From Desulfuromonadaceae bacterium (GTDB lineage Bacteria; Desulfobacterota; Desulfuromonadia; Geobacterales; Pseudopelobacteraceae), in NCBI GenBank assembly GCA_028687585.1, contig JAQTZV010000002.1, positions 248,001 through 312,000 of the forward strand: 64,000 nucleotides of DNA, written 5' to 3'. The notes under the pieces are model-generated. The model was given only the letters and a program-made list of their open reading frames with translations, was not told the origin of the DNA and did no database searches. Position 1 is the stretch's first letter, and each line of letters opens with the position of its first letter. Below, piece by piece: positions 5,628 through 26,932 of the stretch. A program made the translations under genes and the position numbers.

Positions 5628-6092
5628 ATGAATCCGGCAAAAAGAGAAACGGCAGAGGTCATTGATAATTTGCGGAGAGTTTTTCAGGCGGTCAGCGAAT
5701 ACTCCCGCTCTATTGAAATAATGACCGGTTTGACAGGGCCGCAGCTGTGGGCGCTCAAAATTCTGGGGGGCAATGACCCGGTAAATGTTTCGGAAGTTGC
5801 CCGGCAGATGAATCTGCAAGCAGCGACGGTAGTGGGAATCCTCGACCGTCTTGAAAAAAAGGGACTGGTCTCACGGGTTCGTTCGTGCAAGGACCGCAGG
5901 GTTGTCGAACTGGAGATTAGTGAAGCGGGCAGGCAGTTGGTTGTCAAAGCGCCTGAAGTTGCCCAGGCGCTGTTGCTGAAAGGTCTGGATGAGTTGACCG
6001 ATGAACAGTTTTACTCGATTAATGCGGGGATGAAGCAGATGGTGCAGATACTTGGTGCGGAAAAGGTGGTTCCCCAACCGCTTCATTGTTGA
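5628..6092 (+). CDS. MarR family transcriptional regulator
   Basis: This 154-aa protein has the MarR winged-helix layout. An N-terminal dimerisation helix leads to LTGPQLWALKIL, then a recognition region (VSEVARQMNLQAATVVGILDR, about residues 57-77) and the wing with the hallmark DRRVVELE (about 85-92). It is preceded by ACAGGAG at 5617-5623. It is paralogous to the MarR gene at 42034. It lies 61 bp upstream of the glgB start in the same orientation, behind one strong promoter with an overlapping palindrome, so it probably controls itself and the glycogen/GlgE operon. The ligand is unknown. Confidence 0.88.
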   Translation: MNPAKRETAEVIDNLRRVFQAVSEYSRSIEIMTGLTGPQLWALKILGGNDPVNVSEVARQMNLQAATVVGILDRLEKKGLVSRVRSCKDRRVVELEISEAGRQLVVKAPEVAQALLLKGLDELTDEQFYSINAGMKQMVQILGAEKVVPQPLHC

Positions 6093-6153
6093 GCGGCAAC
6101 CGGGCCGGAACGGCTTGGTCACTGAGAAGAAGCAACAGAAAAGGAGCCTATCC

Positions 6154-8052: not shown

Positions 8053-10048
8053 TGTGCTTTTACAGGTAAGCGACGGACGTATGCGTGCGGTGATTGAGAA
8101 CGTTACCCCCTCAGTGGACGGCGGACGTTTTGCGGCCAAACGCATCGTCGGCGACCTAGTCCTCGTTGAGGCTGACTGCTTCACCGATGGACACGATTCG
8201 CTTGCGTGCCGGCTGCTCTGGCGGCTGGAAGATGAGACTGCGTGGAGTGAAGCGGAGATGGTGCCAATGGGTAATGATCGTTGGCGTGGCAGCTTTACTG
8301 CGGAGTGTGTTGGCCGGTACCGCTATACGGTCACCGCCTGGGTGGATCATTTCCTTTCCTGGCGACACGATTTTGCACGACGGGTGGATGGTGACGATCT
8401 GCGGAGTGCGGCTCTGGTCGGCGCCATTCTCATTGATGGGGCCGCAGGGCGAGCAAAAGGCAAGGAGCGCACACAGTTGAAGGGGTGGGCGACCCGATTG
8501 CGCAGCGCCTCTGATGTGCTGGTGCTGAGGGCGCTCGGACTGGACGAAGAACTCGCCGCAGTCGCCGCACGCTTCCCCGACCGGAGTCTCGCCGCTACCT
8601 TTCCCGTCGAACATCCGCTGGTGGTAGACCGCCTGCGCGCCCGTTTTTCGGCCTGGTATGAACTCTTCCCCCGTTCGGCAGCGACCGAATCGGGACGACA
8701 TGGTACCTTTCGGGATTGCGAAGCACGCCTCCCCGAAATCGCAAAAATGGGTTTTGATGTCCTCTATTTTCCACCCATCCATCCGATCGGACGCATCAAC
8801 CGCAAGGGGGCCAACAACACACTGGTCACGGGACCCGACAGTGTGGGGAGCCCCTGGGCCATCGGATCGGCCGAGGGTGGACATATGTCGCTGCATAGCG
8901 AACTGGGAACGATAGAGGATTTCAGGCAACTGGTTACACATGCGCAGACACACGGCATGGAAATCGCCATGGATATCGCGTTCCAATGCGCACCGGATCA
9001 TCCTTACGTCACGGCGCACCCTGAATGGTTCAAATGGCGTCCCGACGGCACCGTGCAGTACGCCGAAAACCCCCCCAAAAAATATCAGGACATCTTTCCC
9101 TTTGAATTCGAATCCGACGATTGGCGCGGACTGTGGCAGGAGCTCGCCAACGTGATTCGTTACTGGGCCAACGAGGGGGTGCGGATTTTCCGCATTGACA
9201 ATCCACACACCAAACCATTCCCCTTCTGGGAATGGGCGATCAGCGAGATTAAACGCGACTATCCGGATACACTCTTCCTTGCCGAGGCATTCACCCGCCC
9301 CAAAGTCATGCACCGGCTTGCAAAGCTTGGCTTTAGCCAGTCCTATACCTATTTCGCCTGGCGCAATACCAAACACGAACTGGTCGAATACTTCAGCGAA
9401 CTCACCCATGGGGAGGGGCGCGAGTACTTCCGGCCGAACGCCTGGCCGAATACCCCTGACATTCTCAACGAGTATCTGCAGTTCGGCGGACGCCCCGCCT
9501 TTATCGTACGTCTGGTGCTGGCGGCAACACTGGCGGCGAGTTACGGTATCTACGGCCCCTCCTACGAACTCACAGAAGCGACCCCGCTCAAACCGGATAC
9601 TGAAGACTATCTTGATAGTGAAAAATATCAGATTCGAACATGGAATCGTGAAGCGCCGCAAAGCCTGTCCAGCCTGATTGCCCACGTGAACCGTGCACGG
9701 CGTGACAATCCTGCGCTGCAGTCCGATGCAACGCTCCGTTTCTTCCCGGTCGATAACGATAATCTGCTCTGCTACACCAAGTCTGACCAGGCACATGAGA
9801 ATCTGGTGGTGATCGTAGTCAATCTCGACCCGCACCACGTCCAGTCAGGGTGGATCGACCTTGACCTTGAGGCTCTCGGCATCGATACAAAAACGCCCTA
9901 CCAGATGCACGACCTCCTCTCTGGAGCGCGCTTCCTCTGGAGCGGGCCGCGCAATTTCGTGCAGCTTGATCCGCAGCGCGCACCGGCGCACATATTCGCG
10001 GTGCGGCGCAAGGTGAGGACCGAACATAATTTTGACTATTTCCTGTGA
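8045..10048 (+). CDS. glgE: Alpha-1,4-glucan:maltose-1-phosphate maltosyltransferase
   Basis: This is a 667-aa GH13_3 enzyme that adds maltosyl units from maltose-1-phosphate to the non-reducing end of alpha-glucan. The N-terminal beta domain (DUF3416 type) is followed by the barrel. The region FDVLYFPPIHPIG is typical of GlgE. The nucleophile is Asp385 in RIDNPHTKP and the acid Glu414 in LAEAF, at positions close to those known for actinobacterial GlgE. It overlaps glgB by 8 bp and is followed by treS-maltokinase after 13 bp. This arrangement provides the whole trehalose-to-glucan route: TreS makes maltose, the fused kinase makes maltose-1-phosphate, GlgE polymerises and GlgB branches. Confidence 0.95.
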   Translation: MTDVLLQVSDGRMRAVIENVTPSVDGGRFAAKRIVGDLVLVEADCFTDGHDSLACRLLWRLEDETAWSEAEMVPMGNDRWRGSFTAECVGRYRYTVTAWVDHFLSWRHDFARRVDGDDLRSAALVGAILIDGAAGRAKGKERTQLKGWATRLRSASDVLVLRALGLDEELAAVAARFPDRSLAATFPVEHPLVVDRLRARFSAWYELFPRSAATESGRHGTFRDCEARLPEIAKMGFDVLYFPPIHPIGRINRKGANNTLVTGPDSVGSPWAIGSAEGGHMSLHSELGTIEDFRQLVTHAQTHGMEIAMDIAFQCAPDHPYVTAHPEWFKWRPDGTVQYAENPPKKYQDIFPFEFESDDWRGLWQELANVIRYWANEGVRIFRIDNPHTKPFPFWEWAISEIKRDYPDTLFLAEAFTRPKVMHRLAKLGFSQSYTYFAWRNTKHELVEYFSELTHGEGREYFRPNAWPNTPDILNEYLQFGGRPAFIVRLVLAATLAASYGIYGPSYELTEATPLKPDTEDYLDSEKYQIRTWNREAPQSLSSLIAHVNRARRDNPALQSDATLRFFPVDNDNLLCYTKSDQAHENLVVIVVNLDPHHVQSGWIDLDLEALGIDTKTPYQMHDLLSGARFLWSGPRNFVQLDPQRAPAHIFAVRRKVRTEHNFDYFL

Positions 10049-10061
10049 TACGGAGTGAAAG

Positions 10062-13000
10062 ATGAGCAAGCAAGGTGCTGTATCCAACGAGGAGGTACTG
10101 CTGAAGGATGCTCTGGGCGAGTCGCAGTGGTACAAAGACGCCGTTGTCTACCAGCTGCACGTCAAGGCATTCTTCGACGCTAACGGCGATGGCGTGGGTG
10201 ATTTCCCCGGACTGATCGAAAAGCTCGACTATGTTCGCGATCTGGGAGTGAATACCATCTGGCTGCTCCCCTTCTATCCTTCGCCAATGAAGGACGACGG
10301 CTACGACGTTGCCGACTATCGCAATGTTTACTCCCAGTATGGCACCCGCAACGACCTGCGCACACTGGTGCGTGAAGCGCACCGCAGGGGTCTGCGGATA
10401 ATTACTGAATTAGTGGTAAACCATACTTCGGACCAGCATCCCTGGTTTCAGGCCGCGCGCCGCGCGCCGGCCGGTTCTTCCAAACGCAACTATTATGTCT
10501 GGAGCGACAATGACCAGAAATTAGCCGGCACCCGTATCATTTTCAGCGATACCGAGACGTCCAACTGGGCATGGGATCCGCTTGCCAAGGCGTATTACTG
10601 GCATCGCTTCTTCAGTCACCAACCGGACCTCAACTATAACAACCCAAAGGTGCTGAAAGCGATTTTCCGCGTTATGCGCTTCTGGCTCGACATGGGGGTA
10701 GACGGATTCAGGCTTGATGCCATTCCCTACCTCTGTGTGCGCGAGGGGACGAGCAACGAAAACCTGCCTGAAACGCACGACGTCATCCGTCAAATCCGCG
10801 CCCAGGTCGATGCCCATTACCAAAATCGCCTGCTGCTGGCTGAAGCCAACCAGTGGCCGGAAGATGTGCGGGAATATTTCGGTGAGGGGGACGAGTGTCA
10901 TATGGCCTACCACTTCCCGCTGATGCCGCGTATCTACATGGCGATCGCGCAGGAAGACCGCCATCCGGTCGTTGAAATCATGCAGCAGACGCCGGATATT
11001 CCGGAGAACTGCCAGTGGGCCATTTTTCTACGCAACCACGACGAGCTGACACTGGAGATGGTGACCAGCAAAGAGCGCGATTACATGTACCAGATGTACG
11101 CTGCAGACCCTCGGGCGCGCATCAACCTCGGTATCCGGCGCCGGCTTGCGCCGCTGATGGAGAATGACCGCGAACGGATCAAGCTGATGAACAGCCTGCT
11201 GCTGTCGATGCCCGGTTCGCCGATCATCTATTACGGTGATGAAATTGGCATGGGCGACAATATTTTCCTCGGTGACCGCAACGGTGTGCGCACGCCGATG
11301 CAGTGGAGCCCGGACCGCAATGCCGGCTTTTCGCGCGCAGATCCGCAACGACTCTACCTGCCGCCGATTATGGATCCGGTCTACGGCTACGAGGCGATCA
11401 ATGTTGAAGCGCAGACGCGTGACCATTCCTCACTGCTTAACTGGATGCGGCGCATGCTGGCGGTACGCAAGAGCAGCAAAGCCTTCGGACGGGGAAGATT
11501 GTCATTCCTCAGCCCCGGCAACCGTAAAATTCTTGCCTATCTGCGCGAGTACGGCGAGGAAACAATCCTCTGCGTTGCCAATCTGGGGCGTTCGGCACAG
11601 CCGGTCGAGCTTGACCTGGTGCATTATCGCGGACGAGTGCCGCTGGAGATGATGGGGCGTACCGCCTTCCCACCTATCGGTGACCTGCCGTATCTGCTGA
11701 CCCTTCCGGCCTGCGGTTTCTACTGGTTCCGCCTTTCCGTTGATGCCGAGGTGCCTCATTGGCATGAAGACCGTCTGGCGCAGGAAGAGCGGCCGGTCCT
11801 GGTGTTGTTCGATGGCTGGACCAGCTTTTTCCGCGATAGAGTTGTCCCGTGGCGCATTCGTATGGCGGAGAAGCTGCGCACAGAATTCGAGGTCGAAACA
11901 CTTCCCCGTTTTATTGCCACGCAGCGCTGGTACGCGGCCAAGGGCGAGCCGATAAAACGCGCGGCTCTGAGTGACTGGGTGCTGTGGGGAGCTGACTGCT
12001 CTTCATGGATGATGGCGCTGCTGCAGGTAGAAACGGCGACCGGTCGGAGCACATATTTCCTCCCGATGGCTCTTGCCTGGGGTGACAGCGATGACGAACA
12101 GGTTCGTGCGCTCGCTGCCGTTACTCTGGCGCGGGTGCGCCAGCAATCGGAAGTTGGTGTTCTGGCGGACGCTTTCGCCGCAGAAGCGTTCTGCCGTGCG
12201 GTGGTAGAAGCTATTGTCACCGGCAGTGTTGCTGCCTGTACACACGGTAAACTGCGCTTTGTCTCTACGTCGGCCTGCGCCGGTCTCTCTGAAAAAACAG
12301 TGGCCCAAATGACTATGGGGCGTCCCAAGTTTCAGGGGAGCAACACGGTCGTAACATTGGGCGACCACCTGTTTCTCAAGGGCTATCGCCACCTGAGAGA
12401 GGGGGTGAACCCTGAATTCGAGGTGGGGCGTTTCCTAACAGAAGTCGCACATTTTGCCAACTGTGTGCCGGTTGCCGGTGCGCTGGAGTACATCGCACCT
12501 GACGGAACGCCGACCAGTCTGGCACTGTTGCAGAGGTATGTCGAAAATCAGGGTGACGGCTGGTCGTATACGCTTGACTACCTCGATCGCACTTTTGAGA
12601 GTTACCTGGCAGCAACTACCGAGCCACCGGTGGATGTGCACGGTGCCTATCTGTCGTTGATACACACCCTCGGCACGCGCACCGCAGAGTTGCATATGGC
12701 TCTGGCGATGCGTACTGGCGATCCCGCGTTTGATCCGGAGCCGGTGGTAGCTGAAGACTTCACCGACTGGAAGCGCCGCGTAAGCGCCGATGCTCTCACG
12801 ACTCTTGCGCTTCTTGAACAGCATCAGGATAATTTTCCGGCTGCGGCTCTGGCAAATTCGCGCATGCTGCTTGATCACCGGCAGCGGCTGACTCAGTATA
12901 TCGAATCCTGTGCCATGCCTGTGGCCACCTGTCTCAAAACACGCTACCACGGCGACTATCACCTGGGGCAGGTGCTGGTGAACAAGAATGATTTCATTAT

Positions 13001-13430
13001 TATCGATTTTGAGGGTGAGCCGTCCCGGCCGTTCGCAGAGCGTCGCATGAAACACTCTTCCCTGCGTGATGTCGCCGGTATGCTGCGTTCATTTGATTAT
13101 GCTCGCTGGTGTGCCCTCTATCGCGATACCTATACTGAAGAAGATCGGGGGAAACTTGTACCGGTCGCGCGCAGATGGGCGGATGAAACCCGCGAAATGT
13201 TCCTGCGGGCATATCATGAAATCACTTTCGGCAGTGGAATGTATGGAGCTTTTGATGAAATAAGCGGGCTGATCGGATTATTTGAAATGGAAAAGGCGCT
13301 GTATGAACTGCGCTACGAAATCGGCAATCGTCCTGGCTGGATCACTGTGCCGCTGCAGGGTGTGCTCGCACTCTGCAACCTTGCATCAGATACTGAAACC
13401 GTCAACATGCCGCACGCACAAGGAGAGTGA
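10062..13430 (+). CDS. treS: Trehalose synthase / maltokinase fusion (copy 1)
   Basis: This 1122-aa bifunctional protein has two parts. Residues 1 to about 560 form a GH13_16 trehalose synthase interconverting maltose and trehalose: YQLHVKAF near residue 29, nucleophile Asp219 in GFRLDAIPYL, Glu261 in LLAEANQWPED, and LRNHDEL. Residues about 600-1122 form a Pep2-type maltokinase with an aminoglycoside-kinase fold, seen in YHGDYHLGQ (about 962-970) and IIDFEGEP (about 981-988). The kinase makes maltose-1-phosphate for GlgE. The start at ATG 10062 has GGAGTGAAAG just upstream. It sits in the glgB-glgE operon. A second full-length paralogue is at 18496. Confidence 0.94.
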   Translation: MSKQGAVSNEEVLLKDALGESQWYKDAVVYQLHVKAFFDANGDGVGDFPGLIEKLDYVRDLGVNTIWLLPFYPSPMKDDGYDVADYRNVYSQYGTRNDLRTLVREAHRRGLRIITELVVNHTSDQHPWFQAARRAPAGSSKRNYYVWSDNDQKLAGTRIIFSDTETSNWAWDPLAKAYYWHRFFSHQPDLNYNNPKVLKAIFRVMRFWLDMGVDGFRLDAIPYLCVREGTSNENLPETHDVIRQIRAQVDAHYQNRLLLAEANQWPEDVREYFGEGDECHMAYHFPLMPRIYMAIAQEDRHPVVEIMQQTPDIPENCQWAIFLRNHDELTLEMVTSKERDYMYQMYAADPRARINLGIRRRLAPLMENDRERIKLMNSLLLSMPGSPIIYYGDEIGMGDNIFLGDRNGVRTPMQWSPDRNAGFSRADPQRLYLPPIMDPVYGYEAINVEAQTRDHSSLLNWMRRMLAVRKSSKAFGRGRLSFLSPGNRKILAYLREYGEETILCVANLGRSAQPVELDLVHYRGRVPLEMMGRTAFPPIGDLPYLLTLPACGFYWFRLSVDAEVPHWHEDRLAQEERPVLVLFDGWTSFFRDRVVPWRIRMAEKLRTEFEVETLPRFIATQRWYAAKGEPIKRAALSDWVLWGADCSSWMMALLQVETATGRSTYFLPMALAWGDSDDEQVRALAAVTLARVRQQSEVGVLADAFAAEAFCRAVVEAIVTGSVAACTHGKLRFVSTSACAGLSEKTVAQMTMGRPKFQGSNTVVTLGDHLFLKGYRHLREGVNPEFEVGRFLTEVAHFANCVPVAGALEYIAPDGTPTSLALLQRYVENQGDGWSYTLDYLDRTFESYLAATTEPPVDVHGAYLSLIHTLGTRTAELHMALAMRTGDPAFDPEPVVAEDFTDWKRRVSADALTTLALLEQHQDNFPAAALANSRMLLDHRQRLTQYIESCAMPVATCLKTRYHGDYHLGQVLVNKNDFIIIDFEGEPSRPFAERRMKHSSLRDVAGMLRSFDYARWCALYRDTYTEEDRGKLVPVARRWADETREMFLRAYHEITFGSGMYGAFDEISGLIGLFEMEKALYELRYEIGNRPGWITVPLQGVLALCNLASDTETVNMPHAQGE

Positions 13431-16172: not shown

Positions 16173-18512
16173 TTGAATAGTACATTGGGAAAAGGAAAAG
16201 GCAAGTTTGGCACGTCAGCGGTTTTCCTTACCGCAATCTCTACCATTCTCGGCGCCATCATGTTTCTCCGTTTCGGCTATGCGGTGGCCAACGTCGGTTT
16301 CATGGGGACGCTGGTTATCATTCTCATCGGCCACGCGGTGACAATCCCCACCGCCCTGGCCCTGGCCGAGATCGCTACCAACAAGAAAGTCGAGGGGGGT
16401 GGAGAATACTACATCATCTCCCGTTCCTTCGGCAGTGTTCCCGGAGCGGCGATCGGTATTTCCCTCTTCTTCTCCCAGGCGATCAGTGTCGCCTTTTACA
16501 TGATAGCCTTCGCCGAAGCCTTTCGCCCCCTCTTTGACATTATAAAGTCCCAGTACGGAATCGAAATTGTCGACCCCCGGATTGTCAGTCTGCCGGCCCT
16601 GATCATCCTCATGGTGATCGTGTTGAAGAAGGGTGCCGACATCGGCATGAAGCTACTCTACGTGGTGGTCTTTTTTCTCTTCATTGCTCTGGTCCTTTTT
16701 TTTATGGGCAACACAGGCTACGCGCAGAGTTTCTCCTCCGAACGGCTGTTCCAGACGATCTCAAGTCCGGCCGATTTTTTTCTCGTGTTTGCCATCTGTT
16801 TCCCCGCCTTTACCGGGATGACGGCCGGCGTCGGGCTTTCCGGCGATCTGCGCGATTCGCGCAAGTCGATTCCGATGGGAACGCTTGCCGCGACCCTGTG
16901 CGGCATGGTCATCTACGTGGCTATTGCCTTTAAACTGGCTGTTTCTGCAACCCCGCAGGAACTCGCCGGCGACCAGATGGCGATGCTTAAAATAGCCCTC
17001 TGGGGGCCTATCATTCCGATCGGACTGGCATGCGCCACGATTTCATCGGCCCTCGGTTCAGCGCTGGTTGCGCCGCGCACCCTCCAGGCGCTGGCCAATG
17101 ACCACGTCATTCCCCTGCCGAGACTTAACGCCTGGCTCTCCAAGGGGACTGGTGCTCACAACGAACCGACCAACGCCTCGGCTGTCGTCTTCGGAGTATC
17201 GGTAGCCATCGTTATGCTGGGTGATGTCGATTTTGTTGCCCAGGTTATTTCGATGTTCTTTATGGTTACCTACGGCTCGATCTGTCTGATCTCCTTTCTC
17301 GAACATTTCGCCGCAGATCCTTCGTATCGGCCGGTATTCCGTTCGCGCTGGTACATCTCTCTCTTCGGCGCCGTCGCCTGTATCCTGCTGATGTTCAAGA
17401 TGAGCACCCCTTACGCCATTATGTCCATTGCAGTCATGTCCACCATCTACCTGATGGTTTCTTATGCAAACACCGACAAGAAGGGTCTGGCGGTAATCTT
17501 CCAGGGAACTATCTTCCAGACCAGTCGCATGCTGCAGGTGTTCCTGCAGAAATCCAGCCGCAATGAACAGGAGGACCGCTGGCGCCCTTCGGTGGTCTGC
17601 ATCTCCAGTGCCTCCTTCGAACGTTTTGACGCTTTCGACATTCTGCGCTGGCTCTCACATCGTGTCGGTTTCGGTATGTACATCCACTACATCACCGGCT
17701 ACCTGTCACGTGCAACCATGGATGAATCGCGCGGAGTTCTCAAACGGCTGGTCCGCCTTGCTGACGTGAGCCACAGTAACATCTACGTCGATACCATTGT
17801 CAGTCCGTCGTACGCCACGGCTCTTGCCAACGTTGTGCAGCTTCCCGGAATATCAGGGAAGGAGAACAACCTGATCCTGTTCGAGTTTGCCCGCAACTCG
17901 CACGACAATCTTGACGAAATAATCGGTAACTACCGGATGGTTGCCTCGGCCGGGTTCGACCTCTGTGTGCTGGGAAGTTCCGACCGCGGTTTCGGTTATC
18001 ACAGGGAGATCCATATCTGGCTCGGCCCTCACGATTTTCGTAACGCCACCCTGATGATTCTTCTCGGCTACATTGTTCTTGGTCATCCTGATTGGAAGCG
18101 AGGGGAGATCAAACTATTTGCATCGTTTCCTGAAGAGGACCTGGAAGGGGAGCGGAAGCACCTGCTCGAAATGGTCACCAAGGGGAGATTGCCGATTTCA
18201 CCGAAAAATGTGGAGCTGATCATTGCCGATCCCCGTTGCTCCCGCTTTGATGTTGTCAGATCGCGTTCTCAGGATGCCGATCTTATCGTTATCGGATTTG
18301 CCGGCGATGCAATTCTGCACAACAAGGAGAAGCTGTTTGAAGGATACGAAGGTCTCGGCAACATCCTCTGGGTCAACGCACAAAAGGCAATCGATCTCAG
18401 CCGTGAGGAAACAGCTGAGGACGATGGTGACGTTGCAACAGACGAATCAGAACCACTCAAGCCGGTTGGGCCACTTTCAAAATCAGGAGAATTAGATGAT
18501 GCGTCAAGTTGA
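16173..18512 (+). CDS. SLC12-like cation/chloride or amino acid permease (APC superfamily)
   Basis: This 779-aa membrane protein opens with an APC-fold core: GTSAVFLTAISTILGAIMFLRFGYAV near residues 13-38, then about 11-12 hydrophobic segments to about residue 440. The TM1 motif ISTILGAIMFLRFG and the long hydrophilic C-terminal domain (about residues 450-779) resemble cation-chloride cotransporters (SLC12) more than ordinary amino acid permeases. The tail contains LIVIGFAGDAI, a USP-like element. The start is TTG, chosen because AAAGGCGGAG precedes it and later starts would cut TM1. It overlaps the second treS fusion by 17 bp, so transport and trehalose synthesis are co-expressed. The transported ion is not determinable here. 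Confidence 0.8.
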   Translation: MNSTLGKGKGKFGTSAVFLTAISTILGAIMFLRFGYAVANVGFMGTLVIILIGHAVTIPTALALAEIATNKKVEGGGEYYIISRSFGSVPGAAIGISLFFSQAISVAFYMIAFAEAFRPLFDIIKSQYGIEIVDPRIVSLPALIILMVIVLKKGADIGMKLLYVVVFFLFIALVLFFMGNTGYAQSFSSERLFQTISSPADFFLVFAICFPAFTGMTAGVGLSGDLRDSRKSIPMGTLAATLCGMVIYVAIAFKLAVSATPQELAGDQMAMLKIALWGPIIPIGLACATISSALGSALVAPRTLQALANDHVIPLPRLNAWLSKGTGAHNEPTNASAVVFGVSVAIVMLGDVDFVAQVISMFFMVTYGSICLISFLEHFAADPSYRPVFRSRWYISLFGAVACILLMFKMSTPYAIMSIAVMSTIYLMVSYANTDKKGLAVIFQGTIFQTSRMLQVFLQKSSRNEQEDRWRPSVVCISSASFERFDAFDILRWLSHRVGFGMYIHYITGYLSRATMDESRGVLKRLVRLADVSHSNIYVDTIVSPSYATALANVVQLPGISGKENNLILFEFARNSHDNLDEIIGNYRMVASAGFDLCVLGSSDRGFGYHREIHIWLGPHDFRNATLMILLGYIVLGHPDWKRGEIKLFASFPEEDLEGERKHLLEMVTKGRLPISPKNVELIIADPRCSRFDVVRSRSQDADLIVIGFAGDAILHNKEKLFEGYEGLGNILWVNAQKAIDLSREETAEDDGDVATDESEPLKPVGPLSKSGELDDASS

Positions 18513-21500
18513 TTCCATTCTTGAAAACAACCCCCTCTGGTACCGCGAAGCGATAATTTACCAGGTTCACATCAAGGCGTTCGCTGATTCCAGCGCTGAC
18601 GGCACCGGTGATTTCCTCGGCCTGATCAGCAAGCTTGACTACCTGCAGCAGCTCGGCGTTACGGCGCTCTGGCTGCTCCCGTTCTATCCATCTCCACAGC
18701 GGGACGACGGTTATGATATCGCCGACTACTATGACGTCAACCCTATCTACAGTTCTCTGCGCGAGTTCAAGCAACTGTTAAGCAAAGCACACAGTTGCGG
18801 CATCCGGGTCATCACCGAACTGGTGCTTAACCATACCTCTGATCAGCATCCCTGGTTTCAGCGTGCCCGCAACGCAAAGCCGGGATCACCCCATCGCGAT
18901 TTCTACGTATGGAGCGATACGCCGGAAAAGTACCATGACGCACGCATTATCTTTCAGGACTTTGAAACATCCAACTGGACCTGGGATCCTGTGGCAAAAG
19001 CATATTACTGGCACCGTTTCTATTCACATCAGCCGGATCTCAACTTTGACAACCCCAGAGTGCAGGCCGAAATGTTGAAGGTGATCGACTTCTGGATGCA
19101 GATGGGAGTTGACGGGGTTCGTCTCGATGCGGTTCCCTATCTGTTTGAGCGGGAAGGAACCAATTGTGAAAATCTTCCCGAAACCCATACTTTTCTGAAA
19201 AAATTGCGTGCCCATCTGGACAGCAAGTTTAAAAATCGCCTGCTGCTGTCAGAGGCGAACCAATGGCCGGAAGACGCCGCCGCCTATTTTGGTGACGGCG
19301 ACGAAAGCAACATGGCTTTTCATTTTCCCCTTATGCCGCGCATGTTCATGGCTATCGAGATGGAAGACCGCTTCCCGATTGTCGATATTCTCGATCAGAC
19401 TCCGGCCATTCCCGATGGCTGTCAATGGGCAATATTCCTGCGCAATCATGACGAGTTGACCCTGGAGATGGTAACCGATGAGGAACGGGACTACATGTAC
19501 CGCGCCTATGCTTCTGATCCCAGGGCACGCATCAATCTCGGCATCCGCCGCCGCCTGGCTCCCCTGATGGGGAACAATCGCCGCAAGATCGAGCTTATGA
19601 ATGTGCTGCTCTTCTCCTTGCCTGGCACTCCGATTATTTATTACGGTGATGAAATCGGCATGGGTGACAACTACTATCTGGGCGACCGCAACGGAGTCCG
19701 AACTCCCATGCAGTGGAATCAGGACCGCAACGCCGGTTTCTCCAAAGCCAGCCCTCATAAGCTGTTTCTGCCGGTCATAATTGAAGCGGAATATCACTAT
19801 GAGTCGATAAATGTAGAGAATCAGGAGCGCAACACATCATCCCTGCTTTGGTGGATGCGGCGCACGATTGCCATGCGCAAGCGTTTCAAGGCGTTCGGCT
19901 GCGGTGCTCTGGAGCTGCTCTCTTCAGATAATCCGAAGGTGTTGACCTTTATCCGCAGCTATCTTGATGAAAAAATTCTGGTGGTCATCAACCTTTCGCG
20001 CTTCTCTCAAACGGTCACCGTTGATCTTTCCCGCTATGCGGGGATGTTTCCTGAAGAAGTGTTCAGCCGCAACCGTTTTCCAATCATCCAGGAGTCGCGC
20101 TATCACTTTACCATGGGACAATATGACTATTTCTGGTTTTCTCTGCGCAGCACAGAAGCTCGGAGTGACACGAGTGACGATGAGTGTCTGAGCCTCTCGC
20201 TGCCAAATGGACACCCGTGGTGGGATGTGGTGAAGGGGAAGACTGGGGAGAGTTTTTGCAGCTTCATTCTGCCTCACTATCTGCAGCGAGTCTTCTGGTT
20301 TTGCGGCAAAGGGCGGGTCATCCGGCAGGTCAGCGTGATTGACAGTTGTCAGATGAAGCAGGATGACCAGCTTTTTCTGCTGACCTTCATCAAGGTGGCT
20401 TATAGCGAGAAGGATGCCGAAACGTATCTGTTGCCACTTGCCTGGATTTCCAATGAACGGCTGCAGACTCTTGCAGACCGGCATCCGCTGGAAATAATCA
20501 CCGCGTTGACTGTTGGAGAGGTTGAAGGATCTCTCTGTGATGCGGTTTACTTTGAGGAGTTTCGCGAACTGCTCTTGAAAACGATACAAGAACGGGCAAA
20601 ATTTGAGGGAGTACAGGGTTCTCATCTGGTCGGCCTGATTCCGGGCGGCGTTGCCAGGAACTTCCCTCCCCGGACAGAGCTGTTTCCCAGCAGGGTTGTC
20701 GCTGTTGTACAGAACAATACCAGTTTTCTGTACGGAGACCGACTGCTGTTCAAGATGTACCGCAAACTTGATGACGGCATCAACCCGGAACCTGAGATGC
20801 TTCAGTTTCTGGCCTCCGGAAAACGATTCCGGAATGTACCTGTCTACGCCGGTAAGATCGAATATCGGCCGACGAAAGAAAAGGTTTTTGATATAGGCGT
20901 GCTGCAATCCTACATTGCCTGTCACGGCGACGCCTGGGGAAATACCCTGACCAGCCTGGCGCAATTTGTTGAATTTCTGCTGTCACACAAGCAAGATCTG
21001 CCAAAACTTCCCGTTGCAATGCCGACACTTCTTGAGGTTGTTGACGGTGGTATTCCTGAACAGTTTCACGATCTTGTGCGTGGATTGCATCTGGAAATGG
21101 CGCTGTTGCTCGGGCGGCGGACCGCTGAGATGCATCGGGCGCTGGCATCCGGTTCACTCGAAAACAGTTGGACCATGGAAGAATTTTCAACCCTCTACCA
21201 GCGATCACTATTTCAATCCATGCGCTCGCTGGTACGGAGAAACTTTCAGCTATTGGCAAAAGCGGTTCACGGTTTGCCCGCTTCAGTTCAAAAGAGAGCC
21301 GGGCGGATACTGGAAGCAGAGAAAGTAATTATCAGCACTCTGCAGAAAATAACCGGCAAGCGTCTTTCCGCTATGAAATCCCGGATTCATGGTGATTTTC
21401 ATCTGGGACAGGCGCTTTTTACCGGCAAAGATTTTGTTTTTATAGATTTTGAGGGTGAACCGGCTCATTCGCTGGGCGAGCGGCGTCTGAAACGCTCTCC

Positions 21501-21843
21501 GCTGCGGGATGTGGTCAGTATGATTCATTCCATTCACTATGCCGCCATGACGACGCTGGCACACCACGCAGCCGGTCATCCTGACGACACGGCTCTTCTG
21601 GAACCGTGGCTTGAGGCCTGGTATGTCTATGTCAGCGGTTCATATCTGAAAGCATACTTGCACACCATGAAAAATTCTCCGCTGATTCCGGCAGACAGGA
21701 AGGAGCTTGAGATCATGCTCCGCTCTTTCCTGATTCAGCGGGTTGTTCACGAGATGGGACATACGTTGATCAGTCATCCGGAGCTGGTTGATCTGCACTT
21801 GCGTGGACTTGAAATGCTGCTGAAGGAAAGCCGCACCGAATAA
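18496..21843 (+). CDS. treS: Trehalose synthase / maltokinase fusion (copy 2)
   Basis: This 1115-aa paralogue of the protein at 10062 has the same two parts. The TreS barrel carries YQVHIKAF, the nucleophile region GVRLDAVPYL, LLSEANQWPED and LRNHDEL. The C-terminal maltokinase carries RIHGDFHLGQ and FIDFEGEP, so both active sites look intact. The barrel is closely similar to copy 1, while the linker and kinase parts are much more diverged. AGGAGA at 18485-18490 precedes ATG 18496. It overlaps the transporter gene and is followed by otsA after 16 bp, so it belongs to an osmotic-stress operon rather than the glgB-glgE operon. Confidence 0.93.
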   Translation: MMRQVDSILENNPLWYREAIIYQVHIKAFADSSADGTGDFLGLISKLDYLQQLGVTALWLLPFYPSPQRDDGYDIADYYDVNPIYSSLREFKQLLSKAHSCGIRVITELVLNHTSDQHPWFQRARNAKPGSPHRDFYVWSDTPEKYHDARIIFQDFETSNWTWDPVAKAYYWHRFYSHQPDLNFDNPRVQAEMLKVIDFWMQMGVDGVRLDAVPYLFEREGTNCENLPETHTFLKKLRAHLDSKFKNRLLLSEANQWPEDAAAYFGDGDESNMAFHFPLMPRMFMAIEMEDRFPIVDILDQTPAIPDGCQWAIFLRNHDELTLEMVTDEERDYMYRAYASDPRARINLGIRRRLAPLMGNNRRKIELMNVLLFSLPGTPIIYYGDEIGMGDNYYLGDRNGVRTPMQWNQDRNAGFSKASPHKLFLPVIIEAEYHYESINVENQERNTSSLLWWMRRTIAMRKRFKAFGCGALELLSSDNPKVLTFIRSYLDEKILVVINLSRFSQTVTVDLSRYAGMFPEEVFSRNRFPIIQESRYHFTMGQYDYFWFSLRSTEARSDTSDDECLSLSLPNGHPWWDVVKGKTGESFCSFILPHYLQRVFWFCGKGRVIRQVSVIDSCQMKQDDQLFLLTFIKVAYSEKDAETYLLPLAWISNERLQTLADRHPLEIITALTVGEVEGSLCDAVYFEEFRELLLKTIQERAKFEGVQGSHLVGLIPGGVARNFPPRTELFPSRVVAVVQNNTSFLYGDRLLFKMYRKLDDGINPEPEMLQFLASGKRFRNVPVYAGKIEYRPTKEKVFDIGVLQSYIACHGDAWGNTLTSLAQFVEFLLSHKQDLPKLPVAMPTLLEVVDGGIPEQFHDLVRGLHLEMALLLGRRTAEMHRALASGSLENSWTMEEFSTLYQRSLFQSMRSLVRRNFQLLAKAVHGLPASVQKRAGRILEAEKVIISTLQKITGKRLSAMKSRIHGDFHLGQALFTGKDFVFIDFEGEPAHSLGERRLKRSPLRDVVSMIHSIHYAAMTTLAHHAAGHPDDTALLEPWLEAWYVYVSGSYLKAYLHTMKNSPLIPADRKELEIMLRSFLIQRVVHEMGHTLISHPELVDLHLRGLEMLLKESRTE

Positions 21844-21859: not shown

Positions 21860-24100
21860 ATGACCGGATTCAGATCACTTAAACTTTCATTACGATTTAT
21901 TATCCCGCTGGTTGTTTCCCTGGGGCTGCTGGCGATTGCCGTGGTGCCGCTGGTGGATAAGCTTAATCTGCGTTGGTTTGTCCGTGATATGGATATGCGC
22001 TCGCAACTGATCGCGAATACTCTGCATGAGCCGCTGGCGGAGTTGATCGGGCAGGGGAACAAGACCAAAATCAACTCTCTTCTGCTGCGAGCTATAAAGG
22101 ATGAACGGTTGCTGGCGCTCGGGTTCTGTAGTGACGAGGGTGCGTTATTGTACCGGACGCCAACATTTCCGAAAAGTATCAGCTGTGAAGAGGTGCCCAG
22201 CGACAGTAAAGCCTCCAGTCGGATACTGCGGCTCCCCGAGGGGGCGGTACACGTCGCCCGTCATCATATTGTTCCGGAAACCGGCGCAAAGGGTGATCTG
22301 ATCCTTGTGCATGACACCAGTTTTATGGAACGGCGCAGTGCTGATACCCGCAAGTATATCATTCTCCTCTTTGTGGTGCTTGGATTGGTAACGTCCCTGA
22401 TAACGGTCTTCGTTGCTCATTTGAGCTGGCACGGATGGATGGAGGGGGTCAGGGCAATGCTCAAGGGGGAAGGTCTTCTCAAGCCGTTCTCGCCGCAGAG
22501 TATCAATTCAGAGTTGCAGCCGCTCGTGGGTGATTTGAAAACGTTGATGCGATCTCTTGATGCAGAGCGGCGTATGGCCGATGACAGCACTATCACCTGG
22601 AGTCCGGATACTCTCCGCAAGCTGCTGCATAAACAGCTGACCGGAGAAAAAATTATCGTTGTCTCCAATCGTGAGCCGTATATTCATAGTAATAATAATG
22701 GCGAGATCGAAGTGCATCGGCCGGCCAGTGGTCTGGTGACTGCTGTTGAACCGGTCATGCGGGCCTGTTCCGGGACCTGGATCGCCCATGGCGGCGGCAG
22801 CGCCGACCGGGAAACGGTCGACGCACATGACCGCGTTATGGTGCCGCCCGACAAACCGGAATACAACCTGAGAAGAATCTGGCTTACAGAAGAAGAGGAG
22901 AAGGGGTATTATTACGGATTTTCCAATGAGGGCTTCTGGCCGCTCTGTCATATAGCCCATGTCCGGCCAGTATTTCGTACCAGTGACTGGGAACAGTATG
23001 TGAAGATCAACCAACGCTTTGCCGATGCCGTGGTCACTGAAGCAGACAGCGACAATCCGGTTGTCCTGGTGCAGGATTATCATTTTGCCCTGTTGCCGGG
23101 TATGATTCGCACGCTTCTCCCCAAAGCCACCATAATCACTTTCTGGCATATTCCCTGGCCAAACCCGGAGTCATTCGGTATTTGCCCTTGGCGTGAAGAG
23201 TTGCTCAAAGGGATGCTGGGAAGTACTATTCTCGGATTTCATACCCCCTACCACTGTAAAAATTTCCTGGAAACGGTGGATCGATACCTGGAGACCCGTA
23301 TTGAGCACGAGTCATCTACCATCTCCCGTCGCGGACAGTTGACCATGGTAGAGAGTTACCCGATTTCGATCCAGTGGCCGCCACCCTGGCATGGTGCGCT
23401 GCCGCCGGTCGAACAGACCCGTGCGGAGATTCTGACAGAACTGGGCCTTCCGGCGGACCAACTGTTAGGTATCGGTATTGACCGGATGGACTATACCAAG
23501 GGGATTCTGGAACGATTCAACGCGGTTGAGCGAATGCTGGAACTGCATCCTGAACTGGTGGGGCGCTTCAGCTTTATCCAGATTGCGGCGCCAAGCCGCT
23601 CGGCGCTGGAGGAATACCAGGCTTTCGAAACGAGGTTGTATGCTCTGGAAAAAAGGATTAATGCCCGTTTTACCCGGGACGGTCGCGCGGCAATCATCCT
23701 CAAGGCCGAGCACCATGAGCCGGACCAGGTGAACCGCTTTTATCGGGCAGCACAGGTCTGTATGGTTACCAGCCTCCATGACGGCATGAACCTGGTGGCC
23801 AAGGAGTATGTGGCCGCCCGGGACGACGAACAGGGGGTGCTGGTGTTAAGTCAGTTTACCGGCGCGGCAAACGAGTTATACGAGGCGTTGGTCGTCAACC
23901 CGTATCATGTGGAGCAGACCGCCGAAGCGCTCTATCAGGGATTAATCATGCCGGAATACGAACAGCAGGAGCGGATGCGCAGCATGCGGGCACAAGTGCG
24001 GGATTTTAATGTATATCGGTGGGCCGGGAGGATGCTCCTAGATGCTGCCCGCGTTCGTCAGAGGGAAAAGCTGGCCGCCAGAATCGGGAGGGTGCCGTGA
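21860..24100 (+). CDS. otsA: Membrane-anchored trehalose-6-phosphate synthase (sensor-like N-terminus + GT20)
   Basis: This is a 746-aa protein with an unusual layout. Residues about 13-34 are TM1, about 35-155 form an extracytoplasmic domain, about 165-190 are TM2, and about 190-245 look like a HAMP-type linker. The GT20 domain starts at about residue 263 (KIIVVSNREPY). Conserved GT20 features include VLVQDYHF, FWHIPWP, GIDRMDYTKG and GMNLVAKEYVA. The enzyme joins a nucleotide-activated glucose and glucose-6-phosphate. Ordinary OtsA is about 450-500 aa and soluble, so the front 250 residues are an addition that could sense envelope or osmotic state. otsB follows with a GTGA overlap. Confidence 0.92.
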   Translation: MTGFRSLKLSLRFIIPLVVSLGLLAIAVVPLVDKLNLRWFVRDMDMRSQLIANTLHEPLAELIGQGNKTKINSLLLRAIKDERLLALGFCSDEGALLYRTPTFPKSISCEEVPSDSKASSRILRLPEGAVHVARHHIVPETGAKGDLILVHDTSFMERRSADTRKYIILLFVVLGLVTSLITVFVAHLSWHGWMEGVRAMLKGEGLLKPFSPQSINSELQPLVGDLKTLMRSLDAERRMADDSTITWSPDTLRKLLHKQLTGEKIIVVSNREPYIHSNNNGEIEVHRPASGLVTAVEPVMRACSGTWIAHGGGSADRETVDAHDRVMVPPDKPEYNLRRIWLTEEEEKGYYYGFSNEGFWPLCHIAHVRPVFRTSDWEQYVKINQRFADAVVTEADSDNPVVLVQDYHFALLPGMIRTLLPKATIITFWHIPWPNPESFGICPWREELLKGMLGSTILGFHTPYHCKNFLETVDRYLETRIEHESSTISRRGQLTMVESYPISIQWPPPWHGALPPVEQTRAEILTELGLPADQLLGIGIDRMDYTKGILERFNAVERMLELHPELVGRFSFIQIAAPSRSALEEYQAFETRLYALEKRINARFTRDGRAAIILKAEHHEPDQVNRFYRAAQVCMVTSLHDGMNLVAKEYVAARDDEQGVLVLSQFTGAANELYEALVVNPYHVEQTAEALYQGLIMPEYEQQERMRSMRAQVRDFNVYRWAGRMLLDAARVRQREKLAARIGRVP

Positions 24101-24894
24101 CAGCATCGTACATATTCAGTCCAAAGGGGCTTTCAGCTCTTGCCCACTTTGTAACACCTGACACTCTGTTCGCATTTGACCTGGACGGCACGTTAGCGCC
24201 GATCGTCGAGGATTATGCTGCTGTGGAGATTTCGGAACCGGTTCGCGCCACATTGGGACGGCTGGTGAAAATTGCGAAAGTTGCGGTGATTACCGGCAGG
24301 TCGCGGCAGGACGCCTTGGCTATTCTCGGATTTGAACCACATGTGCTTGTCGGCAGCCATGGCGCTGAATGGCCGGTGCGGGAAGGACGCTTGAACAGCC
24401 AACAGAGCCAACAGTCAGCGGATTGCCTTATATGGCGAGAAAAACTGTTCAATCTGCTTAGTAACATACCGGGAGTGGAAATAGAGTTTAAGGGAGAATC
24501 GCTTTCTCTCCATTATCGCAAGGCGGACGATGCGGAGGCTACCCTCTTGCTGATTGATGCGGCAATTGATACTCTCATACCGGAACCTCGAAGAATAGGT
24601 GGTAAATACGTTGTCAATCTTGTTCCGATGAAGGCTTTGACAAAGGGAGATGCACTCATTGCCGCTATGGAGATGTTCGAGGCTCAGCGGGCAATTTTTA
24701 TCGGTGATGATGTAACGGACGAAGAGGTCTTCAAGCTGAATAATGCTAATATATTTGGCATACACATCGGGAAGGATGATCAGACTGCGGCTCGGTATTA
24801 TCTGAAAAAACAATCAGCGTTGCTGGGACTTCTCAATTCAATGGTCGGGATTCTGGAGTCATATAAACCTCTTGAGATGGGGGCCCTGCCGTGA
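24097..24894 (+). CDS. otsB: Trehalose-6-phosphate phosphatase
   Basis: This 265-aa HAD-superfamily phosphatase removes phosphate from trehalose-6-phosphate. Motif I is FDLDGT (about residues 27-32), motif II is VITGRS, and the late acidic motif is GDDVTDEEVF. The start was set to GTG 24097, 26 codons inside a longer open frame, because it forms a GTGA overlap with otsA, has GGGAGGG at 24086-24092, and places the DxDxT motif at the usual distance. It overlaps the next antiporter gene in the same way. The product acts directly after OtsA. Confidence 0.93.
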   Translation: MTASYIFSPKGLSALAHFVTPDTLFAFDLDGTLAPIVEDYAAVEISEPVRATLGRLVKIAKVAVITGRSRQDALAILGFEPHVLVGSHGAEWPVREGRLNSQQSQQSADCLIWREKLFNLLSNIPGVEIEFKGESLSLHYRKADDAEATLLLIDAAIDTLIPEPRRIGGKYVVNLVPMKALTKGDALIAAMEMFEAQRAIFIGDDVTDEEVFKLNNANIFGIHIGKDDQTAARYYLKKQSALLGLLNSMVGILESYKPLEMGALP

Positions 24895-26099
24895 CAGAAG
24901 TATCATACGCCTTCATGCTCGCCGGTTTCATTATCCTGACCGGTTTTTTCGGCAACCTGTTTTTTGAGAAGACCAAAATTCCGGACGTTATCGTACTGCT
25001 TGCCATAGGCATTGTCTTTGGCCCGGTGAGCGGACTTGTCAGCCCTGAACGGCTTCAGCACCTCGCTGAATATGTCGGATCTCTGGCATTGCTGGTCATT
25101 CTCTTCGAAGGGGGGATGGATCTGGATCTGGACAAACTGCTGAGTGAGTTCGGCTCTGCCGCACTTCTGGTACTGCTCTCTTTTCTTCTGACGGCGGGAA
25201 GCATCGGCGCCTATCTCCATCACGTTCTTGGTTGGGAAATCCCGCTAAGCCTTATGCTGGGAGCGATTCTTGGCTGCAGCAGCGCTGCCATCGTCATACC
25301 GATCATCAATCGGCTGAACGTCTCTGAGGAAATTAAAACAACTCTCTCCGTTGAATCGGCACTTAGTGACGTGCTGGCCGTAGTCATAACGGTTTCACTC
25401 GTTGGTGCCATTCAGATCGGGCAGAAAGATCCCACTGCTCCGTTCAAGGCGGTGGTCGGTTCCTTTTCAACGGCTATCGTAATCGGCTTTGTTGTCGGTT
25501 TGGTATGGATGAAAGTGCTCGATGTCATGCGCGGGAAGAAACTGGCGTATATGCTTACCCTCGCAGCGATTCTTATCGCTTTTGGCGGCGTCAGACTCCT
25601 TGGCGGGAGCGGTTCCATTGCGGTGCTGGTGATCGGTCTTGTGCTGGGTAATGCCGAATCATTTACAAAATTTTTGAAAATAAAGGAACCTTTGCAGGTT
25701 GATCAGAGCATTCGTTTCCTGCATGAGGAGATCACTTTCTTCATTCGAACGTTCTTCTTTGTCTACCTTGGTATGATATTCTCTTTTAAAGAATTAAATA
25801 CTGAATTCATGACGCTGTGTGGTGTTATGGTGCTGATTATTCTCCTGATGCGCATTATCTCTACCGAGATAACGGTGAAAATCTATCCGGAAAAGAAACC
25901 TGATAATTTGCTTATTAAATTGATGATGCCGCGCGGGCTTGCTTCTGCCGTTCTTGCAACGCTGCCGGTTGCTGCAGGTGTTGCCGGGACGGAAGGTTTT
26001 GTCACTATAACGTTCGGCGTCATTATTGTGACTAATATCCTGCTCACCATCGGCATGTTTTTTCTCGGGTTGGGAAACAGCGAGGGGGTGGTCACATGA
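24891..26099 (+). CDS. CPA-type cation/proton antiporter
   Basis: This 402-aa protein has about 11-12 membrane segments and the monovalent cation:proton antiporter fold. Typical elements are the first-helix stretch FFGNLFFEKTKIPDVIVLLAIG, LLVILFEGGMDLD and GCSSAAIVIPII. It lacks the C-terminal TrkA-N/TrkA-C domains of KefB/C. GTG 24891 overlaps the otsB stop, so it belongs to the trehalose operon. Na+/H+ or K+/H+ exchange is likely, but the ion is not determinable from sequence. Confidence 0.85.
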   Translation: MTEVSYAFMLAGFIILTGFFGNLFFEKTKIPDVIVLLAIGIVFGPVSGLVSPERLQHLAEYVGSLALLVILFEGGMDLDLDKLLSEFGSAALLVLLSFLLTAGSIGAYLHHVLGWEIPLSLMLGAILGCSSAAIVIPIINRLNVSEEIKTTLSVESALSDVLAVVITVSLVGAIQIGQKDPTAPFKAVVGSFSTAIVIGFVVGLVWMKVLDVMRGKKLAYMLTLAAILIAFGGVRLLGGSGSIAVLVIGLVLGNAESFTKFLKIKEPLQVDQSIRFLHEEITFFIRTFFFVYLGMIFSFKELNTEFMTLCGVMVLIILLMRIISTEITVKIYPEKKPDNLLIKLMMPRGLASAVLATLPVAAGVAGTEGFVTITFGVIIVTNILLTIGMFFLGLGNSEGVVT

Positions 26100-26932
26100 T
26101 TAAAGTTAATTTCTTTTTTGCCCTTTCATTACTGAGTACCGCACTGGTTGGCTACATTGACCACGTGACAGGTGCCCATATTTCAATGATGATATTTTAT
26201 GCCGTGCCGATTCTTCTCGCCTCCAGATACTGCGGCAAGGTTGAAGGGTTTATCATTGCAGTCTGCGCAGGCGGCAGCTGGTTTGTCGTTAATTTGTTTT
26301 ACAAGCTTCCTGAAAGCAGCGAAGCCATACTCTCGTGGAATGCCTTAACTCGCTTCGGTATTTTTGTGTTGATCTCCTATACGGTCTCGTTGCAGGCGAA
26401 ACTCAGAAGTGCGCTTGAGAGGGAAATATTGAGGGCGGACACCGATCCGCTTACCGGTCTCTTGAACAAGGGGGCTTTTCGCGATCGGGTTGAAGATGAA
26501 ATGAATCGGGCACGCCGCTATAATCATCCTCTGACACTGGCGTTCGTCGATCTCGATAATTTTAAGCAGGTCAACGATACAGAGGGGCATGCCCGAGGTG
26601 ACAGGCTTTTACAGCTCGTCAGCGAGACAATTGTGAATACCATACGGGAAACCGACGTCGCCGGTCGTGTCGGGGGGGATGAATTTACCATCTGTTTTCC
26701 TGAAACCGGAGAGGAACAGGCGCGTAACGCAATAGCCAATCTTGTCGGGGCGCTCGATATCATGACCAGTCAATCCGGGTGGCAGATCACTGCAAGTATT
26801 GGTGTTGTTACCTGTCTGGAGGTCCGTGACACCTATGATTCTTTGCTCGGGAAAGCTGACCGGTTGATGTATGTTGCTAAGGAAAAAGGAAAAAATGGCG
26901 CCGAATTTGAAACAATCGACGAAGGCAGGTAG
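26096..26932 (+). CDS. Membrane diguanylate cyclase (GGDEF)
   Basis: This 278-aa protein has three or four N-terminal hydrophobic helices (about residues 5-100), a short coiled linker, and a GGDEF domain from about residue 112. The catalytic motif GGDEF is at residues 193-197. The inhibitory-site motif RETD is at 184-187, exactly five residues before it, so product feedback control is likely. It should make cyclic di-GMP from two GTP at the membrane. ATG overlaps the antiporter stop as ATGA. Placement at the end of the trehalose/antiporter operon links c-di-GMP signalling with osmotic response, which is an inference from context. Confidence 0.9.
   Translation: MIKVNFFFALSLLSTALVGYIDHVTGAHISMMIFYAVPILLASRYCGKVEGFIIAVCAGGSWFVVNLFYKLPESSEAILSWNALTRFGIFVLISYTVSLQAKLRSALEREILRADTDPLTGLLNKGAFRDRVEDEMNRARRYNHPLTLAFVDLDNFKQVNDTEGHARGDRLLQLVSETIVNTIRETDVAGRVGGDEFTICFPETGEEQARNAIANLVGALDIMTSQSGWQITASIGVVTCLEVRDTYDSLLGKADRLMYVAKEKGKNGAEFETIDEGR

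Follow-up and report, generated by a model that had tools for sequence, protein, structure and literature searches.

In HAMP-linked one-component receptors, such as chemoreceptors and adenylyl or diguanylate cyclases, periplasmic input and cytoplasmic output are carried by one chain. The sensor kinases WalK/YycG, KinD, CitA, and CusS share a front end in which two transmembrane helices (TMs) flank a single Cache domain, with long signaling helices and a HAMP or HAMP-derived linker that leads to a histidine kinase. Here, we describe a protein that has this front end and the same working plan as the one-component receptors, yet ends in a biosynthetic glycosyltransferase. It is a predicted trehalose-6-phosphate (T6P) synthase of family GT20, encoded in a 64,000-nucleotide stretch of a Desulfuromonadaceae bacterium genome (GCA_028687585.1, contig JAQTZV010000002.1, positions 248,001 to 312,000; hereafter, the window). 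Unlike that of the one-component receptors, its output would be the intermediate of a bulk metabolite rather than a messenger or phosphate signal, and in its own clade the HAMP region is degenerate.

The enzyme half resembles OtsA (M. thermoresistibile 5jij; 1uqt, which we take to be E. coli OtsA): GT20 is matched over its full profile, the checked acceptor and donor residues are kept, with one His for Gln, and otsB adjoins. Most solved OtsA chains have 455 to 534 residues (one has 693), whereas the window's protein carries about 246 additional residues, two TMs, and a periplasmic domain.

The available text of the 2016 Cache census lists only known signal-transduction outputs, except for the SMP_2 family (PMC4822843); an osmoprotectant precursor, as the fused synthase would make, is unlike these. 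The accessible part of a 2024 review of alpha-glucan enzymes uses neither “transmembrane” nor “membrane-bound” (PMC11046441). That of the Ramlibacter tataouinensis genome report describes a cluster of a candidate synthase, a T6P phosphatase, and a trehalase, and mentions no membrane part for the synthase (PMC3164672). Other Ramlibacter genomes carry the membrane synthase in our contig scan. Our searches, which covered open-licence PMC text, found no description of a Cache-GT20 fusion. Thus delimited, the searchable literature seems not to describe the combination, and the proteins themselves are present in public genomes.

A receptor-type front end on a complete GT20 enzyme

The 746-codon open reading frame (ORF), from the ATG at 21860 to the end of the stop codon at 24100, has AAAGAGGA just 5' of its start; position and frame agree exactly with those given in an earlier note on this DNA. 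That note had also proposed a receptor-type front end on GT20, which is borne out and is kept as one unit across relatives. The chain connects, in order, a predicted TM1, single Cache domain, TM2, HAMP-derived linker, joint helix, and intact GT20 domain (Table 1). It is the single GT20 match in its own 5.47-Mb assembly. We favor, with some confidence, the reading that it is an inner-membrane T6P synthase controlled by the receptor front end that it carries itself.

The front end occurs in clade A, which holds the window's protein, and in a sister clade B (~42% identity). Clade-A counts refer to 103 distinct proteins (90 clusters at 90% identity); a 112-row set, cited where used, held nine duplicates. 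Left out of the 103 were partial or misread loci (L025, L026, L029, L070, L103, and L132), the front-end–less L027, and clade B. A mis-called start or a frame fusion of two genes has a negligible probability: nothing was found in its favor, and the identical fusion recurs in all 103 proteins, some of them encoded by genomes of isolates, among these Janthinobacterium sp. LM6 (complete) and Rubrivivax gelatinosus DSM 1709. This conservation refutes an artifact.

The earlier note had also named a separate upstream start giving a soluble GT20 as evidence against the fusion. The helices lie inside the ORF and are conserved, so no upstream start yields a soluble enzyme. Internal start codons fall at no conserved position. 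The most frequent, ATG200, occurs in 48 of 112 rows, of which 15 have a Shine-Dalgarno–like 4-mer, and 51 of 112 have some start codon with such a 4-mer within residues 200 to 262. An extra soluble product from an internal start could still arise in single species.

Pfam PF00982 matches residues 264 to 728 with E = 1.9e-115 (386.8 bits against a cut-off of 32.5; profile positions 2 to 470 of 473). In a further difference from OtsA, the NCBIfam equivalog TIGR02400 scores 402.4 bits, under its cut-off of 564.85. The accessible text on mycobacterial OtsA gives Arg18, Tyr90, Asp144, Gln146, and Arg324 as acceptor residues (PMC6879718); of these five, four are kept, Arg18, Tyr90, Asp144, and Arg324 being identical to R271, Y351, D406, and R580, and Gln146 is replaced by H408. 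Residues were mapped by alignment to the solved OtsA chain, whose index was taken to be the paper's number plus 1. R271, Y351, D406, H408, and R580 are each present in 103 of 103 clade-A proteins, as are R542, K547, D641, and E649, which we count among the donor and catalytic residues. Because the OtsA equivalog cut-off is not reached, the prediction of T6P as product relies on the kept substrate residues and the adjoining otsB.

Two helices and a single Cache domain

Hydrophobic peaks at residues 14 to 32 (mean hydropathy, 2.77) and 167 to 185 (2.97) agree with the two TMs and intervening extracytoplasmic domain expected earlier; the domain itself has 133 residues (33 to 165) rather than about 120. 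Lysine plus arginine counts do not decide the membrane orientation; we infer a cytoplasmic N-terminus and a periplasmic Cache. In fold as well as in profile, the periplasmic part matches Cache domains of sensor kinases (profile against WalK 5is1: E = 6.9e-5 with clade-B rows and 0.0044 with all 33 rows). On the sequence of the window's protein, no Pfam Cache-type model matched at E ≤ 0.1. Among the 33 N-termini, Pfam finds SMP_2 in nine, dCache_3 in four (best 1.7e-8), and sCache_3_2 in four, beside chance-looking families. A double Cache, which the earlier note had offered for a domain search, is ruled out, as a single Cache-sized segment lies between the TMs. Four loci (L110, L112, L117, and L134) have some 35 to 40 additional residues between TM1 and TM2, perhaps an added sensor part.

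C90 and C109 are the sole cysteines of residues 33 to 165 in 102 of 103 clade-A proteins; 12 of 13 clade-B rows have no cysteine in the periplasmic part. The invariant pair points to a disulfide or a metal site, a structural disulfide being equally allowed. A C90-C109 disulfide or a bound metal (perhaps with H131 and H151) might act as a periplasmic switch that reads envelope redox or metal state, not osmolarity. We hold this only tentatively; as a special case of the receptor-gated synthase, it shares part of that reading's probability. Against this reading, a disulfide between the two could serve structure alone, and the match to CusS, at the level of fold only, is one among those to many sensors.

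The linker is a shortened HAMP remnant

The earlier description of the linker as HAMP-like, exactly as in a chemoreceptor, is too strong for the window's protein. Pfam PF00672 gives no match to it at E ≤ 1, and it is not among the 53 HAMP matches of its own genome at that threshold. Compared by profile with the HAMPs of its own genome, the clade-A linker reaches a probability of 2.3% with 112 rows (six control stretches, 0.1 to 2.1%) and 0.3% with 19 rows. The clade-B linker, which reads WSITGPIAxIA...G, matches the same HAMPs at 75% (E = 2.6e-5 over 48 columns; controls, 0.1 to 2.0%), and the clade-A and clade-B linkers match each other at 65.8% (controls, 0.1 to 0.5%). Pfam HAMP is seen in 1 of 33 rows (E = 0.025).

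The interval from T182 to W193 spans 11 residues in clade A against 18 in clade B (a comparison of 33 rows), and the value of 11 is found in 102 of the 103 clade-A proteins. In the MAFFT alignment, one seven-residue clade-A gap falls inside the first HAMP helix and another past the second helix; the latter is less sure, since the 193 to 236 interval differs little (mostly 40 to 45 residues in clade A and 45 to 48 in clade B). Since clade A connects to HAMP through clade B but not in direct comparison, the clade-A linker is, on these alignments, the remnant of a HAMP that has become shorter by about one heptad. A standard HAMP in the window's protein was rejected by the direct tests, and HAMP by descent is kept. 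The paired clades, one with HAMP kept and one with it shortened, offer a natural test of how a relay helix can be shortened without breaking a receptor.

Conservation of the front end

Clade-A spacings are near-fixed: residues 12 to 47 are 35 apart in 101 of 103 proteins, 159 to 182 are 23 apart in 102, and 236 to 247 are 11 apart in 101, in addition to the 182 to 193 interval given above. Length changes fall within 83 to 145 and the 193 to 236 connector, with some in 47 to 83 (36 in 91 of 103). Mean entropy is 1.91 bits in the periplasmic part against 0.96 in GT20. In and near the membrane, conservation over 112 rows is 0.99 for P16, W39, D43, and R47 and 0.97 for P30.

The ratio of nonsynonymous to synonymous substitution rates (dN/dS) for residues 1 to 246 is 0.086 against L003, the one comparison among 10 in which all regions gave a value, and 0.049, 0.143, and 0.146 against L005, L010, and L024; the other six pairs have saturated synonymous rates (dS). 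For GT20, it is 0.036 against L003 and ranges from 0.036 to 0.053 where computable. These values indicate purifying selection on the front end.

These data bear on a rival explanation, in which the front end is a membrane anchor that holds the synthase near OtsB, TreS, and transporters, with the Cache as a structural dimerizer and no catalytic control. Three observations weigh against receptor gating and suit an anchor: the Aminobacter plasmid variant has a single TM and no Cache, the clade-A HAMP is degenerate, and the front end evolves faster than GT20. We nevertheless consider a plain anchor unlikely, because the spacings are near-fixed despite a periplasmic sequence twice as variable as that of GT20. 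C90 and C109 are invariant, and periplasmic and TM positions are conserved over several phyla. Furthermore, anchoring needs no Cache fold, which the available census text otherwise reports with signaling outputs (PMC4822843). Taken together, the fixed spacings, the selection, and the cysteine pair argue for more than an anchor.

A proposed route from periplasmic signal to trehalose

In a receptor-gated synthase, the protein would dimerize via its Cache and helices. A periplasmic change (a ligand, the envelope state, or the thiol or metal state of C90 and C109) would move TM2 and the linker helices, and this shift would change how the GT20 domains open or assemble, their N-terminal lobe being joined on directly. 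T6P output would thus be set, and co-made OtsB would complete trehalose. Such a one-piece receptor-enzyme would need neither phosphorelay nor transcription to turn a signal into a metabolite. The anatomy best suits a route that has no transcription step, and osmotic sensing is plausible from the locus context. Of the signal-coupled trehalose synthase proposed in the earlier note, the TM-Cache-TM-linker unit fused to a complete GT20 is supported; a standard HAMP and a double Cache are not.

LapD signals inside-out to a periplasmic partner. In a comparable scheme, the substrate or product state of GT20 would be passed outward and the Cache would recruit a periplasmic partner. We regard this as highly improbable: the conserved neighbor is otsB, and no conserved periplasmic partner gene was noticed, although none was searched for.

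If receptor coupling is true, bacteria in several phyla could change their trehalose level as fast as an allosteric switch acts, and trehalose onset before new protein synthesis could be tested in one purified protein. A broader and rather doubtful extension is a widespread receptor class with biosynthetic output. In this class, the thiol/disulfide or metal state of the cysteine pair would gate the first committed step to trehalose through a heptad-shortened HAMP relay, without phosphorelay or transcription, and, via TreS-maltokinase, would also gate glycogen-type glucan.

Distribution of the fusion

A survey of GT20 proteins for the same N-terminus, as the earlier note had suggested, finds it in several phyla. 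The per-genome searches score few candidates, so all prevalence counts are lower bounds. Among 58 close genomes (own included), 23 encode the front-end protein, two more have it cut at contig ends, one has a GT20 without front end, and 32 have no match. In the phylum sample, 33 of 395 genomes, own included, encode the front end, and 159 have any match. Of these 33, 31 are rows that start no later than residue 7, and the other two, G301 and G431, were recognized when their loci were read; G180, cut by its contig, stands outside them. In the order to which a Rubrivivax gelatinosus genome belongs (Burkholderiales), the front end occurs in 21 of 300 genomes (any match, 49), and in the phylum of a Nitrospira genome, it occurs in 29 of 148 (21 at 56 to 59% identity and 8 at 40 to 43%; any match, 59). 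Nine of those 21 (G804, G843, G861, G864, G870, G872, G878, G890, and G894) have a second GT20 match, ~40% identical, that starts at residue 257 to 264 in a frame of 520 to 568 residues, too short for a front end.

A contig scan of titled genomes confirmed at least 571 relatives, of which the best 80 loci were analyzed. These come from Thermodesulfobacteriota, Pseudomonadota, Nitrospirota, Bdellovibrionota, Acidobacteriota, Gemmatimonadota, Myxococcota, and one Verrucomicrobia assembly (phyla from title or NCBI rank, metagenome labels as given). Nearest among the matches listed are Desulfuromonadaceae and Geobacteraceae metagenome assemblies (88 to 84% identity). A script placed two helices at matching places in 76 of the best 80. 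Of the other four, L132 is cut by its contig, L103 was given a misplaced start and has both helices visible, L129 is unclear because its reading began 213 nucleotides inside the match, and L136 lacks TM2. In this last locus (metagenome; 5989-8112), the first linker helix is also missing, and GT20 as read would lie outside; it is likely a decayed gene or an assembly fault. L136 was kept among the 103, where it may account for the single value of 0 in the 159 to 182 and 182 to 193 spacings.

Ten stretches of viral contigs fit a pattern, none of them a relative. Of 359 matching plasmid records, none covers more than 80% of the query; the best covers 55%, from residue 227. The one-TM relative lies on Aminobacter plasmid pAA02 (L030, 3842-5659), beside a glycosyltransferase gene and an amylo-alpha-1,6-glucosidase gene. 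Its 9.5-kb listing names no otsB and has a HAD hydrolase-family gene at the edge.

Origin of the fusion

Clades A and B and the Aminobacter plasmid protein form one clade in the GT20 tree, with a Shimodaira-Hasegawa–like approximate likelihood ratio test (SH-aLRT) value of 98. The tree is a quick one (81 rows, SH-aLRT, no bootstrap), and several long-branch rows outside the membrane clade are placed unsurely. The next branches are soluble proteins. These adjoining “SNREPYxH” GT20 relatives (e.g., L168 to L178) have no membrane part, and most begin at the joint helix: in loci L168 to L182, 11 of 15 scripted starts lie 22 to 24 residues before SNREP, a place that corresponds to W247 in the joint helix. 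The starts of L174 and L182 lie 35 and 44 residues ahead of SNREP, and L172 and L180 were poorly read. Because the soluble relatives mostly start at W247, the fusion joint is placed at about residue 246. The front end was probably added once, the outgroup suggesting gain over loss. Two independent fusions were considered and are not needed, clades A and B being a single clade.

No donor sensor kinase with a similar front end was found in the own genome (E ≤ 1) or in 12 clade-B genomes (E ≤ 0.01). All 12 of the latter have the front end on GT20 and, except for one 43-position fragment, nowhere else at that threshold.

Compared in 120-base stretches with L010, which belongs to the same genus, the window's DNA is identical at 52 to 63% over residues 0 to 160, 62 to 76% over 160 to 280, and 82 to 94% over 280 to 760; the next 240 codons, which hold otsB, are at 64 to 83%. 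Correspondingly, dS between L010 (1480-3726) and the window's gene is 2.36 in the front end and 0.66 in GT20. Against L003, the gene is evenly 70 to 88% identical. In this one pair, the L010 mosaic resembles the outcome of recombination whose edge lies close to the fusion joint.

Gene neighborhood

Table 1. Positions of the synthase, its parts, and adjoining genes in the window.
Feature	Position	Strand	Evidence
TreS-maltokinase fusion, ending 16 nt before the synthase ORF	18496..21843	+	TIGR02456 886.8 and TIGR02457 416.9 bits, over cut-offs
Predicted Cache-TM-HAMP-derived linker-GT20 trehalose-6-phosphate synthase, 746 aa	21860..24100	+	ORF reading, Pfam GT20, family alignment
TM1, residues 12-32 (R12, F13, P16, P30 conserved)	21893..21955	+	Hydropathy, conservation
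Predicted periplasmic single Cache domain, residues 33-165	21956..22354	+	
Cys90, invariant in clade A	22127..22129	+	103/103 distinct clade-A proteins
Cys109, invariant in clade A	22184..22186	+	103/103 distinct clade-A proteins
TM2, residues 166-188	22355..22423	+	Hydropathy; 159-182 spacing fixed in 102/103
Degenerate, shortened HAMP-derived linker, residues 189-246	22424..22597	+	Alignment and profile comparisons
Joint helix region, residues 247-263; start zone of most soluble relatives	22598..22648	+	Starts of relatives, conservation
GT20 catalytic domain, residues 264-728	22649..24043	+	Pfam, substrate residues
otsB-like trehalose-6-phosphate phosphatase	24097..24894	+	TIGR00685 101.4 bits against cut-off 68.05
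Sodium/hydrogen exchanger-family antiporter, overlapping otsB	24891..26099	+	PF00999 1.3e-41
GGDEF protein, N-terminal half hydrophobic (by eye), overlapping the antiporter gene	26096..26932	+	PF00990 3.7e-40

The proposed GTG start of otsB overlaps the synthase stop; in the ORF list, its frame opens at 24019. Among the best 80 loci, otsB is directly downstream in 64, overlapping or within 20 nucleotides in 58 of them; four others end with the contig, four have otsB elsewhere in the locus, and in eight none was found. We infer one operon. Promoter-like sites (17 against 10.0 expected) and terminator-like sites (14 against 12.5) were not used. The antiporter scores under the cut-off of the potassium/proton antiporter model PRK05326.

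Farther upstream in the window, 6052-13430 holds glgB (over its NCBIfam cut-off) and a first TreS-maltokinase fusion, which makes two copies of the latter in all. The ORF at 8045-10048, which we read as GlgE-like, has no NCBIfam match at 1e-20. The surroundings suggest a trehalose/alpha-glucan plus ion-stress locus, with the fused synthase as the likely gate for trehalose entry. In L058, relatives of the antiporter and GGDEF genes (81% and 76% identity) lie on the upstream side of the synthase instead, where they end ~4.0 and 3.1 kb before it.
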